Source of the DNA: Pseudomonadota bacterium
GTDB taxonomy: Bacteria > Pseudomonadota > Alphaproteobacteria > Rhizobiales > Hyphomicrobiaceae
DNA: 6,435 nucleotides
Direction: 5' to 3'
Assembly: GCA_023392135.1 (NCBI GenBank)
Contig: JAEVZQ010000499.1
Span: forward strand, 1 to 6,435
The stretch's first letter is position 1. Every line of letters starts with the position of its first letter. The position numbers and the translations under genes were made by a program. The notes under the pieces were generated by a model that was not told the DNA's origin, ran no database searches, and saw only the letters and a program-made list of their open reading frames with translations. Positions 480-6,174 of the stretch are shown piece after piece.

Positions 480-769
480 GGGGCGACTTCAGCTCTCAAG
501 TGTCGGATTGCGGGCGAATATCAGCCTGAAAGGGGGAGTGGGGTCAAGCTGGGGACAGTCGGCCCTTTCGCCAATCAATTCAAATCAATTGCCGCTCCCC
601 GGCCTAGCGGCTCTCTTAGCGGCCGGTGATGTCGATGCAATGGACATGTCGTCCTACACATGTCGATGAATCGCGAATTTATCGACATATGTGCAGGTTT
701 ATGGCGACAGCATCGACATGATATGGCAGATATGTCGACCAAATCAAGTTTCATCGACATATCGCCGCA
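480..769. other. Divergent leuS/fic intergenic region
   Basis: 290 bp without a credible gene. The left half (480-600) should carry the leuS promoter and leader. It includes a G-rich stretch around 532-556, a 10-nt-spaced direct repeat ATCAATT (574-580 and 584-590), and a TAGCGGC direct repeat at about 605-624. The right half (629-760) is AT-richer than the surrounding coding DNA and is dominated by ATGTCGAT/ATCGACAT motif copies, listed separately. I could not identify convincing -35/-10 hexamers for either gene. Confidence 0.7.
629..760. promoter_or_regulatory. Helically phased operator-like array upstream of fic
   Basis: Exact ATGTCGAT occurs at 629-636 and 660-667. Its exact reverse complement ATCGACAT occurs at 681-688, 712-719 and 753-760. 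A one-mismatch copy ATGTCGAC is at 732-739, and a weaker ATGTCGtc at 646-653. Leaving out the weak copy, successive starts are 31, 21, 31, 20 and 21 bp apart, close to whole numbers of B-DNA turns. Sites 660/681 and 732/753 form two inverted pairs, each with a 13-bp gap. The flanks also agree, giving a longer consensus of roughly atATGTCGATgaa. The last site ends 10 nt before the fic ATG. This is the layout expected of cooperative repressor binding over a promoter. The repeat is seen directly; the regulatory role and the identity of the binder are inferred. Confidence 0.65.
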
Positions 770-1912
770 ATGTTCGATCCCAACCGCCCCTATAACGACT
801 TGCCGCCACTGCCACCGGCCGCGGACGTCGAGACGAAGGCGGTCCTCAAGCGCTGTACGCCGGCACGCACGGCATTGGCCGAGCTTCGGCTCGCGGGCGA
901 GCTGCTGCCGGATCAGTCGGTCCTGATCAATGCCATCCCAGTCCTGGAAGCGCGCGACAGCTCCGAAATCGAGAACATAGTGACCACCAACGATGCGCTG
1001 TTCCGTGAGGCAAGCCTTTCCGATGATGGCGGCGATCCGGCAGCCAAGGAAGCCCTGCGCTACCGGACGGCGCTCTACCAGGGATTCGAGTCGCTGAAGC
1101 AGCGCCCTATTTCGACTCGAACGGCCGTCGAGATCTGCCGGACCGTGACCGGAGTGGCACTCGACATCCGCCGCACGCCAGGAACGACCCTGAAGAATAC
1201 GTTCACTGGAGAGGTCATCTATACACCACCGGAAGGAGAGGCGCGGCTCAGGGGTCTGCTTGCCAACTGGGAGGCCTTTCTCAATGCGGATTCGGACATC
1301 GACCCGCTGGTGCGCATGGCGATCCTGCACTACCAGACGGAGGCGATTCACCCATTCCCCGATGGGAACGGACGTACCGGACGCATCCTCAATATCCTGA
1401 GCTTGGTCCAGTACGGCGTGCTGGATCTGCCCACGCTCTATCTCAGCCGTCACATCCTGCGCACGAAAGCCGACTACTACCGGCTGCTGCAGCGGGTCAC
1501 GACCCATGCGGAGTGGGAGCCCTGGATCCTCTACATGCTGACGGCGGCCGAGGTCACCTCGATCTGGACCAACGCCAAGATCAGGGCTATCCGCCGGTTG
1601 ATGGATGCGACGGCGGACTACGTTCGCGCGGGTGCACCGAGGATATATTCGCACGAGCTGGTGCAGCTCATATTCGCGCAGCCCTATTGCCGGATCGGCG
1701 ATCTCGTGCAATCCGGCATCGCCAAACGCCAGGCCGCATCCGTCTATCTGAAGGCACTGGCTGAGATGGGCATTCTCGAGGAGAAGAAGGTGGGTCGCGA
1801 CAAGCTGTTCGTGCATCGCAAGTATCTTGCGCTGCTGTCGAGCGACGAGCATACGTTCGAGCCCTACGGGGTCCCCTCCCTGCCGATCAGGCCTGCCGAG
1901 CGGGTGATATGA
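770..1912 (+). CDS. Fic family protein (class II AMP-transferase with C-terminal winged helix)
   Basis: 380 residues, the typical length of stand-alone Fic/DOC N-terminal-type proteins. Fic enzymes usually transfer AMP from ATP to a hydroxyl side chain of a target protein. The N-terminal helical domain spans about residues 1-90 and contains SSEIEN at 64-69, fitting the inhibitory helix motif (S/T)xxxE(G/N), with E68 as the expected inhibitory glutamate. A flap-like strand, GEVIYTPPEG, lies at 147-156. The complete catalytic motif HPFPDGNGRTGR is at 194-205, with H194 as the catalytic base. Residues about 290-352 look like a winged helix (IGDLVQSGIAKRQAASVYLK, then a GRDKLFVHR wing), as in solved Fic proteins of Shewanella and Bacteroides. 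The ATG at 770 is the only start: an in-frame TGA sits at 719-721 and no other start codon lies between. No clear Shine-Dalgarno precedes it. The stop overlaps the yggS start. Target protein and physiological role are unknown. Confidence 0.95.
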   Translation: MFDPNRPYNDLPPLPPAADVETKAVLKRCTPARTALAELRLAGELLPDQSVLINAIPVLEARDSSEIENIVTTNDALFREASLSDDGGDPAAKEALRYRTALYQGFESLKQRPISTRTAVEICRTVTGVALDIRRTPGTTLKNTFTGEVIYTPPEGEARLRGLLANWEAFLNADSDIDPLVRMAILHYQTEAIHPFPDGNGRTGRILNILSLVQYGVLDLPTLYLSRHILRTKADYYRLLQRVTTHAEWEPWILYMLTAAEVTSIWTNAKIRAIRRLMDATADYVRAGAPRIYSHELVQLIFAQPYCRIGDLVQSGIAKRQAASVYLKALAEMGILEEKKVGRDKLFVHRKYLALLSSDEHTFEPYGVPSLPIRPAERVI

Positions 1913-4330: not shown

Positions 4331-5074
4331 TCAGCGCCAGTGCTCACCGATCCACTTCGTCGGCTTGGTGTGCTTGTATAGCTTCTCGTGCCAATGGCGG
4401 ACCGGCCATTCACCTGCGAGTGCCTCGTGCTGTTTTGGCCGTCCTGTGAACGCCACCACTTTCGTATCCAGGGGGAGCCGGGCCGGCACGAGGAAGCGGA
4501 GTGGCCATGCTGGCAATAGCGAGTGCTTGAAGCTGACGCACCACCCTTTCGGCCAGAACAGCATGTCTTCGATCGTATCTGAAATGTAATGCTGATCGGT
4601 GCGCCAGCGCTGCATTATGTTTCTAAAGTTCTGCTCGAATTGTTCGAAAATGTGTGTGTACCGCCCCACGGGAAATCGGAACACAGATGTGTTGCCGATA
4701 TGCTGGCCTTCCTGGGTCCAGTTTTCTATCACGATGTAACGCCCGGGCTCGAAATCAAACAGCGGATCGAGCGACCCGACGATCACAAGGTCCAGATCAA
4801 GGAACAGCACGTCGCCTTCGAGGCCGGCCAGCGGATATTGCCAGACCGAGATCTTGCGCCAGGTCGACCAGGCCATGCGCTCTGGAAGCGAGATATCAGG
4901 CAGGGGCGCCGTCTCGATATCCGATGAGATGCCGCTTTTGTCGTCGGTAAAGCAGAGCAATCGCGTAGGTCGGGCGACATTGCGCCGGATCATCGAGGCA
5001 AGCCGGTTGACGTATTCGGGGCCGTAGCGCGTGCCCCATTTCATGCAGATGATCGTCTGCTCGGTTCCGCTCAC
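4331..5074 (-). CDS. Glycosyltransferase-like protein (GT-A fold, DLD motif)
   Basis: 247 residues with no signal peptide or membrane span, so probably cytoplasmic. The first strand TIICMKWGTRYG (7-18) opens a nucleotide-sugar-binding fold. LLCFTDD is at 39-45. FLDLDLVIVGSLDPLF at 91-106 carries the DxD motif (D93, D95) that binds the metal and sugar diphosphate in GT-A enzymes. TDQHYIS at 159-165 and a late FTGRPKQHEA segment at 209-218 match the acceptor-side and C-terminal blocks of small bacterial glycosyltransferases with a conserved MKWG opening. Donor and acceptor are unknown. The GTG at 5074-5072 is chosen because a strong GGAGGG lies 7 nt upstream, the nearby ATG at 5079 runs into a stop in its own frame, and starting at the internal ATG (5044) would remove the first beta strand. 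It is convergent with the cytochrome gene (35-nt gap) and divergent from the following gene. Confidence 0.88.
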   Translation of the reverse strand: MSGTEQTIICMKWGTRYGPEYVNRLASMIRRNVARPTRLLCFTDDKSGISSDIETAPLPDISLPERMAWSTWRKISVWQYPLAGLEGDVLFLDLDLVIVGSLDPLFDFEPGRYIVIENWTQEGQHIGNTSVFRFPVGRYTHIFEQFEQNFRNIMQRWRTDQHYISDTIEDMLFWPKGWCVSFKHSLLPAWPLRFLVPARLPLDTKVVAFTGRPKQHEALAGEWPVRHWHEKLYKHTKPTKWIGEHWR

Positions 5075-5081
5075 CCCATTT

Positions 5082-5087
5082 CCCTCC
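5082..5087 (-). promoter_or_regulatory. Shine-Dalgarno GGAGGG deciding the GTG start
   Basis: On the minus strand, GGAGGG is followed by 7 nt and then GTG at 5074-5072. It supports the GTG start of the glycosyltransferase over the longer in-frame extension to 5281. Confidence 0.75.
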
Positions 5088-5261
5088 GGTCGCTGAATTC
5101 TGTGGAAAGTGGTTAGGCGCGGGCACTGTTCCGAGCTTAGGGGCGCGGCTCGAGCCTGGAAAGCAGCCAGATCCGGTTTTCCAGTCCAATTTTGCCTCGT
5201 GTGCCGACCCGCCGGCTTCGCGGTGGTAGTTTGACAAACTGATTCGCGTCGCATTCGAGGT

Positions 5262-5269
5262 GGGAGGGG
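5262..5269 (+). promoter_or_regulatory. Shine-Dalgarno GGGAGGGG for the 299-residue protein
   Basis: A strong purine-rich site 5 nt before the ATG at 5275. It favours this start over the GTG at 5260, which would place the site inside the coding sequence. Confidence 0.75.
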
Positions 5270-5274
5270 CTGGT

Positions 5275-6174
5275 ATGGCACAAAATTCGGCTGCTGCGGT
5301 CAGTGATCGCGTGGAGATGGCGCCAGATGTGCTCGAACGCGAGACGGCACAGGATTCCATCACCCGTACCTCCGGCAAAAGCCAGCAGCGTGGCAGTCCC
5401 GCAGCGAACAGATCAGCTGACGGTTGGCGGCGTTTCACGCTGGACGTCTGGATTACCGATCTCAACTCTTTCGAGTTCGGCATCTATCGCCATTCCCGTA
5501 ACCGGGCGAAGTCGCGTCAGTTCTCGACGGACATGGACATCTTTGCGGAGGTGAAGGAAGGCGGCCAGCGCACCGGGGTCATCGGCTATCGCGAGGACCT
5601 ATGGAAGCAGAATTCCGGCATGGACAAACGTCTGATCATCAGGCTGTTCTCTGACAGCCTGAACTGGCGCGCCACGATGGATCTGATGATGGGGCGCAGC
5701 CTGCAATTGACGCTCGGCGCGCGCGGCATCCCGGTGACGGCCTTTGCCATCAATACGCACGAGGACAAGTCCATCATTTATCTGGAGCGGTCGGCCAACA
5801 AGTGGCCGGTGCTTCCCGAGAACTTCTCGTTTTTTATCATTCGGGAGGGCAAGCCGGTTTTCTACCGCTTGCGGCACGACTTCTTCAGCGTCGGCGGTGA
5901 CTATACTCTCCTGGATGAGCGCAGCCGCAAGGTCGGGCACATCGACGGCCGCCTCTTCACGCTTGGCGGCTATTGGAACTGCAAGGTGCGTGAGGATCAC
6001 GCCGACGACAAGCTGATGACGGTGATGAAGCTCTTTGCCGGGGGAATCGGCTTCAATTCAGCTTGCCGCAGGCACATCAAGCGGCTCGCGGCAGACGTTC
6101 GCGCCGGAAAGCTGGCGCCGAAGCTGGAGCGGTACGAGGCGGAGTACTACCTCAATCCTCGGCGGGTGCGGTGA
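5275..6174 (+). CDS. Uncharacterised protein with tubby-C/LURP-one-related-like C-terminal half
   Basis: 299 residues with no signal peptide or membrane segment. Residues 1-50 are polar, low in hydrophobics and probably disordered. Residues 51-175 form an alternating beta-rich region (RFTLDVWITDLNSFEFGIY at 53-71, GRSLQLTLGARGIPVTAFAI at 140-159) that I do not recognise. Residues about 197-262 read like one half of the LURP-one-related/tubby-C-terminal-like barrel: FYRLRHDFFSVGGDYTLLDE, then KVGHIDGRLFTLGGYWNCKV, the 'slg.dytI.De.g..v..vdGk.f.l' pattern of bacterial YxjI-like proteins. The family call is pattern recognition, not a profile match. The tail is charged and ends YYLNPRRVR. The function is unknown; related folds bind phospholipids. 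The gene is divergent from the glycosyltransferase and upstream of an aminotransferase gene on the same strand, 124 nt away, so an operon is possible but unproven. Confidence 0.8.
   Translation: MAQNSAAAVSDRVEMAPDVLERETAQDSITRTSGKSQQRGSPAANRSADGWRRFTLDVWITDLNSFEFGIYRHSRNRAKSRQFSTDMDIFAEVKEGGQRTGVIGYREDLWKQNSGMDKRLIIRLFSDSLNWRATMDLMMGRSLQLTLGARGIPVTAFAINTHEDKSIIYLERSANKWPVLPENFSFFIIREGKPVFYRLRHDFFSVGGDYTLLDERSRKVGHIDGRLFTLGGYWNCKVREDHADDKLMTVMKLFAGGIGFNSACRRHIKRLAADVRAGKLAPKLERYEAEYYLNPRRVR

Follow-up and report, generated by a model that had tools for sequence, protein, structure and literature searches.

The nearest proven counterpart of the locus described here is CccR of Yersinia pseudotuberculosis, a Fic protein with a C-terminal helix-turn-helix (HTH) that, in the available part of its description, is an autorepressor, which binds to inverted repeats of its own promoter and needs to be dimeric (PMC9755527). 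Because CccR represses itself, a Fic protein with a C-terminal HTH can work as a self-repressor. In the SoFic/Sofic-AS1 proteins of Shewanella and Escherichia coli, the C-terminal domain is treated as a regulator of toxicity, and the accessible part of the same paper leaves open how SoFic toxins are restrained in healthy cells and freed on infection (PMC12249575); its text contains none of the terms helix-turn-helix, transcription and upstream. According to the accessible part of another source, DNA binding by SoFic had not been shown as of 2023 (PMC10628234). Structures of SoFic are available (3zcn, 3eqx), as are the further PDB entries 9tb0, 9tc4, 9tch and 9tcl. Among regulators of restriction, RptR of E. 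coli, as described in the accessible part of PMC12255303, is a small helical protein, not an enzyme, that represses a type I restriction island with three TAGCTA direct repeats, and the controller (C) proteins of type II systems are described in the available parts of two papers as small autoregulators that time the restriction gene (PMC3695507, PMC6237814). The presence of fic among type I restriction genes is already in print, as locus IV of Histophilus somni in the accessible part of PMC3339403.

We analyzed a stretch of 6,435 nucleotides from an alphaproteobacterium of the Hyphomicrobiaceae (hereafter, the window), in which a fic gene is preceded by an array of short half-sites. As in the CccR operator, one half-site recurs here in inverted orientation at the beginning of the protein's own gene. 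The geometry, however, differs: the CccR site is described as a single pair of 10-bp boxes separated by a 26-bp spacer (PMC9755527, available part), whereas the window contains a lattice with 3-bp and 13-bp gaps. CccR also belongs to a different subfamily, with 20-21% identity between its structure (probably 7xux, judging by length) and the model of the window Fic, and control of a neighboring restriction gene is absent from the available part of its description (PMC9755527). RptR, as far as its available description goes, is similar in being a repressor that binds repeated palindromes where a restriction operon begins (PMC12255303); such a placement of the array is found in relatives with hsdR, whereas the window itself contains no hsd gene, and, as a further difference, Fic is unmentioned in the RptR text. 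The C proteins differ from the Fic array in representing another protein family and type II systems, judging by the accessible parts of PMC3695507 and PMC6237814. Neither control of hsdR by Fic nor an array at fic was found in searches of an open-access library. Thus, a self-repressing Fic regulator (CccR) and the location of fic among type I restriction genes are known already; new here are the other subfamily, a long phased lattice as opposed to one pair, a readable two-residue code and the placement before hsdR.

The array and the Fic protein in the window

The array comprises eight half-sites within window positions 629-760, five of them exact, two with one mismatch and one with two mismatches (Table 1). 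These form two four-site modules, the second of which repeats the first at exactly 72 bp, and the start-to-start steps between successive sites are 11, 20, 21, 20, 11, 20 and 21 bp. Facing half-sites are thus 11 or 21 bp apart (one or two turns of the helix), with gaps of 3 and 13 bp, and back-to-back neighbors are 20 bp apart (two turns), with a gap of 12 bp. The modules are identical in 28 of 32 positions within the half-sites and in 10 of 30 outside them, and the overall match is the highest among 6,295 same-offset pairs of the window. Because the identity is concentrated in the half-sites, it is the sites and their spacing that are conserved; a recent duplication would show another pattern. 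With a helical repeat of 10.3 bp per turn, all eight sites lie at most 0.07 turn off one face of the DNA, and the phase concentration of 0.984 is equalled by none of 20,000 random eight-site sets. Half-site matches with at most one mismatch number 17 in the window against 5.5 expected, a count reached in 0 of 200 shuffles, and the six-site lattice score yields z values of 17.6 (25 shuffles) and 14.5 (60 shuffles). A chance or low-complexity origin of the array is ruled out by the shuffles, the lattice test, and the module and phase statistics.

Table 1. Half-sites, modules and fic features, in window coordinates
Feature	Position	Strand	Description
Half-site 1	629..636	+	ATGTCGAT, exact
Half-site 2	640..647	-	ATGTCCAT, one mismatch; faces 629, 3-bp gap
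Half-site 3	660..667	+	ATGTCGAT, exact
Half-site 4	681..688	-	ATGTCGAT, exact; faces 660, 13-bp gap
Half-site 5	701..708	+	ATGGCGAC, two mismatches, found by eye; half-site 1 + 72 bp
Half-site 6	712..719	-	ATGTCGAT, exact; faces 701, 3-bp gap; half-site 2 + 72 bp
Half-site 7	732..739	+	ATGTCGAC, one mismatch; half-site 3 + 72 bp
Half-site 8	753..760	-	ATGTCGAT, exact; faces 732, 13-bp gap; ends 9 bases 5' of the fic start codon
Module 1	629..690		3-bp-gap pair, then 13-bp-gap pair; 38/62 identical to module 2
Module 2	701..762		four-site repeat of module 1
fic	770..1912	+	SoFic-type protein adenylyltransferase, 380 aa; Fic_N, Fic, SoFic-like_C (Pfam), fold match
C-terminal winged-helix domain, residues 277-352	1598..1825	+	PF21248, structure model
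Recognition helix of the model, residues 320-332	1727..1765	+	third helix of the winged-helix domain

A sequence-only reading of this DNA had listed five exact copies of the half-site, one with a single mismatch and one weaker copy. The exact copies and the weak one at 701 stand, but there are two single-mismatch copies rather than one, and the site at 640 is missing from the spacing series of that reading, the complete list amounting to eight. The spacings that it gave (31, 21, 31, 20 and 21 bp) are correct, and so are the two inverted pairs with the identical 13-bp gap (660/681 and 732/753). Its view that the degenerate site, 20 bp after the 681 site and 11 bp before the 712 site, is in phase holds for all eight sites, and both the nearly common face of the DNA and the low probability of chance recurrence are borne out by the phase and shuffle statistics above. 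The 72-bp module repeat and the inverted pairs with the 3-bp gap (629/640 and 701/712) had gone unremarked. An extended nucleoprotein complex over the promoter had been proposed as well, and a multi-site complex at the start region is indeed the best reading; the likely binder (Fic), the modules and the placement at hsdR are what the present analysis adds. A sigma-70-like promoter was not found on the + strand at the array, and there is one 9-of-12 match on the - strand; with no + strand promoter, repression and activation cannot be told apart from the sequence at this place.

The Fic protein of the window carries the Fic_N, Fic and SoFic-like winged-helix (wHTH) domains in one chain, scores 578.6 bits against NF046030, above the family cut-off of 550, and matches the PADLOC SoFic model with 382.7 bits (E 5e-115). 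The Fic motif is HPFxDGNGRxGR and the class II inhibitory motif is (S/T)xxxE(G/N); the translation contains HPFPDGNGRTGR and S64-S-E-I-E68-N69, respectively, and S64, E68 and N69 are invariant in 28 sequences. By homology, this protein is a predicted anti-phage toxin. The fic gene overlaps a YggS-like gene by 4 bases (window 1909-1912), and control of fic may extend to yggS. The gap between leuS and yggS looks like a landing place for fic (window 480-769; L001-L027): leuS precedes fic in all 21 of the loci L001-L021 and yggS follows in 19 of these, with no yggS within the available DNA of L001 and L006; in L023, L026 and L027, which belong to a different clade, fic lies reversed between the two genes. 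Two other long frames of the window, 4331-5281 (-) and 5275-6174 (+), have no Pfam or NCBIfam match at E 0.001.

Recurrence of the lattice beside fic and hsdR

Recurrence was assessed in 95 loci, namely, the best 80 of 274 relatives, 13 plasmid loci, one E. coli locus and the window, a sample in which distant relatives are underrepresented. When no motif was assumed, repeated 8-mers had a direct spacing of 30 bp in 35 of 81 loci, of 41 bp in 34, of 31 bp in 30 and of 72 bp in 28, whereas the shuffle control averaged 7 and never exceeded 11.4. A lattice score that leaves the letters free and permits steps of 11 or 21 between facing and of 19 or 20 between back-to-back sites reached z>=4 in 50 of 94 loci in the region upstream of fic and in none of 95 within fic; the 3 of 93 loci with such values farther upstream include two (L021, L106) in which arrays continue. 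From 1,200 bases past the start, none of 92 loci reached this value, which is a weak control that begins beyond most post-fic arrays. A control grammar with the steps shifted to other periods (c2) gave z>=4 in 0 of 94 loci; another one (c1; 14/24, 16/17), with 38 of 94, was set aside: its 31/41-bp periods are the same in a shifted register, so that it reads the same lattice and is not independent. L056, with runs of N, was left out of the 60-shuffle six-site scoring. An alignment of orthologous fic upstream regions had been suggested by the sequence-only reading, and the 50 loci above answer it: in relatives, the array is present at the fic promoter.

In a full scan of the 95 loci (446 kb), an array was located directly before fic or directly after its stop codon in 79 loci, compared with about 2.5 arrays expected by chance from 30 hits elsewhere. 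The threshold of 276 was chosen after viewing shuffles and is close to the highest scores reached by chance; L046 and L105, both among the 79 loci, are probably chance hits. The array is found before fic only in 46 loci, after fic only in 30, on both sides in 3 and on neither side, at this threshold, in 16; one of the latter (L067) has a broken fic, with an array at the expected gene end. The arrays extend over several phyla; those upstream of fic occur in, among others, Hyphomicrobiales, Gammaproteobacteria, Phycisphaerales, Actinomyces, Balneolaceae and Lautropia as well as on plasmids of Mesorhizobium, Methylosinus, Cedecea and Pantoea, and in many loci the array ends close 5' of the fic start codon. 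In E. coli, fic is present in 278 of 5,426 genomes, with about 80% identity to the Cedecea query, and its array (L106), when read with a loose pattern, has about 24 half-sites spread across about 590 bp, with a period of 70 bp; among the 233 genomes where this region was found, 215 carry it with at least 99% identity. In both E. coli and Pantoea, a 3-bp-gap pair spans the spacer of a promoter-like GTGACA-17-TATTAT (10-of-12 matches), such sites being no commoner than in shuffles, with 1.8 and 1.1 expected by chance in the respective regions.

A later set of 398 genomes yielded 30 loci, two of which (L200, L201) repeat L002 and L001. The sole new member above the family cut-off, L199, has Q321 and the letters TGTCGAT that the rule described below predicts (z6 6.3). 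Among lower-scoring relatives, a TATA-lettered lattice is present in L205, L208, L211, L214, L215 and L216 (z4 4.4-8.4), with six-site z>6 in L205, L208 and L211, and a weak lattice in L206, L209, L210, L212 and L217 (z4 2.5-4.4). The upstream-side scan detected no lattice in L202, L203, L204, L207, L218 and L219, which are 55-73% identical to a query, and there was none in L223 and L225-L228 (31-34% identity); L213, L220, L221, L222 and L224 are cut or broken loci.

Several loci have peculiarities of their own. On three plasmids (L094, L097, L098), fic overlaps a gene of a recombinase family, with repC near in L094 and L098. The enterobacterial arrays of L099, L100 and L106 alternate regularly between TCGAT and TTTAA/TTTAT. 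In Lautropia (L073), the lettering is the same on both sides of fic, and the best-scoring stretches have a 41-bp period. A second array distant from fic, possibly marking a second target, is located at about 4696 in L066, where it follows a frame that has RhuM and Fic domains, and at about 687 in L059, with the letters of the array at fic.

Within 250 bases after the fic stop codon, 25 of 90 loci have a lattice with z>=3.5. The first half-site starts one base past the stop codon in 16 of 33 downstream arrays, and the step order 11, 19, 21, 19, 11 is seen in 25 of the 33. The hsdR gene was searched for with eight HsdR proteins from the same loci, within the available DNA, which often spans about 2 kb behind fic and in L057 only 301 bases. 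It comes next after fic in 12 of the 30 loci that have a downstream array only, in none of the 46 with an upstream array only, in none of the 3 both-sided loci and in 2 of 15 array-less loci; L067, counted apart, also has hsdR behind its broken fic. Overall, hsdR follows fic in 15 loci, with the array between them in 13 of the 15, L067 included. Pfam detects HSDR_N in 9 of 20 picked downstream frames and the specificity subunit (Methylase_S) in 7 of 10 picked frames before fic; in the hsdR-bearing loci, fic sits between hsdS and hsdR, and the array lies at the start of hsdR, L074 (Janthinobacterium) being an example of this order. In 18 of the 30 downstream-only loci, hsdR was not found as the next gene, and in L041, L073 and L079, the frame behind the downstream array runs on the opposite strand or no clear start lies ahead of the array. 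In L064, the array after fic is upstream of an alanyl-tRNA synthetase frame (about 390 bp past the fic stop).

We dropped the view of the array as nothing more than a fic promoter element because upstream-negative loci carry the array after the fic stop codon. Where fic precedes hsdR, the array mostly lies between the two, so that Fic would, as a rule, control whichever gene follows the array. The common denominator would be an array just before the start of one gene, fic itself or hsdR, which the 18 downstream-only loci do not plainly fit.

Half-site letters and Fic residues 319 and 321

The half-sites share ATG (or GTG), followed by locus-specific letters: TCGA, TTCA, GGAA/GGCA, GGTA, TCCA, CGCA or CCGA. 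In a set of 75 loci, these letters follow the Fic residues 319 and 321. All 6 loci with V321 have TTCA, one of them (L019) mixed with CGCA; K321 is associated with GGGTA in 6 of 6 loci when residue 319 is Q, R or T, and with TCCA in 4 of 4 when it is E; Q321 goes with TGTCG in 43 of 46 loci; and H321 goes with ATGG in 6 of 8, the remaining two having ATGG in the gene-proximal segment of the array. L019 was scored as TTCA in this test and as CGC on the Fic-core tree. Where two arrays flank fic, the higher-scoring one was used; L105 and L046 (doubtful arrays), L104 (reversed register) and L032 were dropped from the 75-locus lettering test, and L032 and L067, in which fic is broken where read, from the protein tests. 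Five betaproteobacterial loci (L041, L058, L061, L078, L079) carry two lattices, one with TATA letters upstream of fic and one with TCGA letters downstream; the upstream arrays break the Q321 rule, whereas the downstream ones obey it.

A scan of all 380 Fic columns for association with the lettering, blind to the position of the helix, ranked residue 321 first in all sets (n 22, 55 and 75). The runners-up were 319 and 325 in the clade of the window (n 22) and 319 among the 55 loci; among the 75, residue 321 was followed by tail positions and residue 2. Residues 319, 321 and 325 map at or just before the modeled helix 320-332 of the wHTH. A partial Mantel test of lettering against residues 319/321 given the Fic-core distance yielded r 0.70 (p 0.0002, 5,000 permutations, 75 loci), whereas the Fic-core distance alone correlates with lettering at r 0.11. 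The main caution on this joint change is relatedness: the well-supported independent branch pairs, 4 for Q, 3 for K, 2 for V and 2 for H, are nearly all concordant and none is discordant, but they are too few for a sign test. The letters change together with the Fic residues, so that Fic likely binds its own array.

One pair of loci captures the change between sisters. L004 and L005, from two Hyphomicrobium MAGs with fic at the same place, are sisters on the Fic-core tree (support 98), and one has V321 with TTCA and the other H321 with GGAAC; helix and letters have switched together. In blocks of 100 columns, their flanks are 94-98% identical upstream (the end block aside) and 79-98% on the downstream side. 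The fic code is 77% identical in the first block, 82-91% in the next seven, 72-73% in the wHTH and 83-97% thereafter, and the array side is 46-67% identical. Because the most divergent stretches are at opposite ends of the gene, hitch-hiking of a single tract is an unlikely cause of the joint change.

Away from fic, the facing 13-bp-gap pair is rare. We used this pair as a probe and assigned places to fic via contig coordinates. In 12 scanned genomes, the exact TTCA pair occurs at 7 places and the exact GGAA pair at 6, every one of them at fic; the former are distributed over 5 of 5 V-class and the latter over 5 of 7 H-class genomes, and no exact class-specific pair is present in a genome of the other class. 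With one mismatch, the TTCA pair has 15 further places, 4 at fic and 11 elsewhere. In 12 other genomes, the TCGAT pair with at most one mismatch is at fic in 12 of 13 places, and places with two mismatches are many and mostly scattered. Since the exact pairs are confined to fic, no larger regulon is seen; weak sites elsewhere may exist. The genome-wide scan that the sequence-only reading had advised, run here on genomes of relatives, accordingly places exact pairs at fic only; this check and the one on orthologous promoters, two of the three by which that reading could have been refuted, both favor it. A phage origin was also considered and rejected: the exact 13-bp-gap TCGAT pair is found in 53 viral contigs against 39 for a control 15-bp gap, and with only one of the 53 adjoining a Fic-like gene (27% identity), there is no phage link for the pair.

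Function of the array and alternative explanations

We consider it probable, with some room for doubt, that the array at 629-760 is the operator of the adjacent Fic, whose dimers would bind side by side via their C-terminal winged-helix domains and repress fic. In E. coli, the Sofic dimer is described as joined by an N-terminal helix (PMC12249575, accessible part), so that a dimer would present two wHTH domains, each of which likely reads one half-site. With whole-turn steps, all sites are on one face, so that dimers could sit side by side, and Fic itself would bind the array cooperatively along that face. The putative output is repression, given that the last half-site ends 9 bp from the start codon; bound Fic would silence the gene behind the array, that is, fic in the window and hsdR in some relatives. 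Induction by phage infection is a guess from the known role of the family.

Fic may instead bind the array to activate the next gene, or the array may serve as a DNA sink that keeps the dimers harmless, a reading that we regard as unlikely. It would accommodate the location of arrays either before fic or right past its stop, the both-sided arrays in three loci, the large extent of the E. coli array, which goes beyond the needs of an operator, and the lack of a visible coding-strand promoter in the window. Against it stand the short distance from the array end to the fic start codon in many loci and the 3-bp-gap pair across the promoter-like spacer in E. coli and Pantoea, a position that fits a repressor, albeit at a site frequency at the chance level; moreover, a sink need not precede hsdR, and yet an array is there in 13 of 15 hsdR loci. 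That a different regulator reads the array and Fic is a mere neighbor appears very improbable. Fic binding is deduced here from sequence comparison, and some plasmid copies adjoin recombinase or integrase genes, but the letters track Fic residues 319 and 321 far better than they do the Fic-core distance, the exact pairs are confined to fic, and one grammar with class-specific letters recurs in distant bacteria with different neighbors.

Two further explanations dispense with a regulator altogether. The region 629-769 folds well as RNA (z -5.2), as any inverted-repeat array would, and the palindromes could be hairpins in a leader; there is, however, no Rfam match at gathering scores and no tRNA, the constant inter-palindrome distances of 19/20 bp and the 10.3-bp phasing would be superfluous for hairpins, and one lettering tends to run across the palindromes of a locus and follows a DNA-binding helix, which makes this explanation extremely improbable. 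We give almost no credence to the array being a recombination or transposition end of a mobile fic cassette: the overlap of fic with a recombinase gene on three plasmids and the occurrence of either fic orientation in the leuS/yggS gap among relatives would agree with mobility, but the array is one-sided in 76 of 79 loci, no recombinase is among the protein families of the window, and the letters follow Fic.

A more far-reaching version, which we deem unlikely, combines the operator with the sink: the array would be a DNA antitoxin on which Fic dimers polymerize along one face and are kept harmless while the gene behind it (fic or hsdR) is silenced. When a phage destroys or unpacks the host DNA, the sink would be lost, toxin and restriction enzyme would be released together, and the cell would stop; swapping of helix and lettering as a pair would avoid cross-talk. 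If this is true, one protein family has built many private address systems.

On the operator reading, the array connects an AMPylating toxin with the beginning of a type I restriction gene and offers a concrete, testable answer to the question of how SoFic is restrained, along with a target site. The several lettering classes, together with the switched sister loci, amount to a natural table of protein-DNA specificity, in which two residues of a helix are set against four bases.
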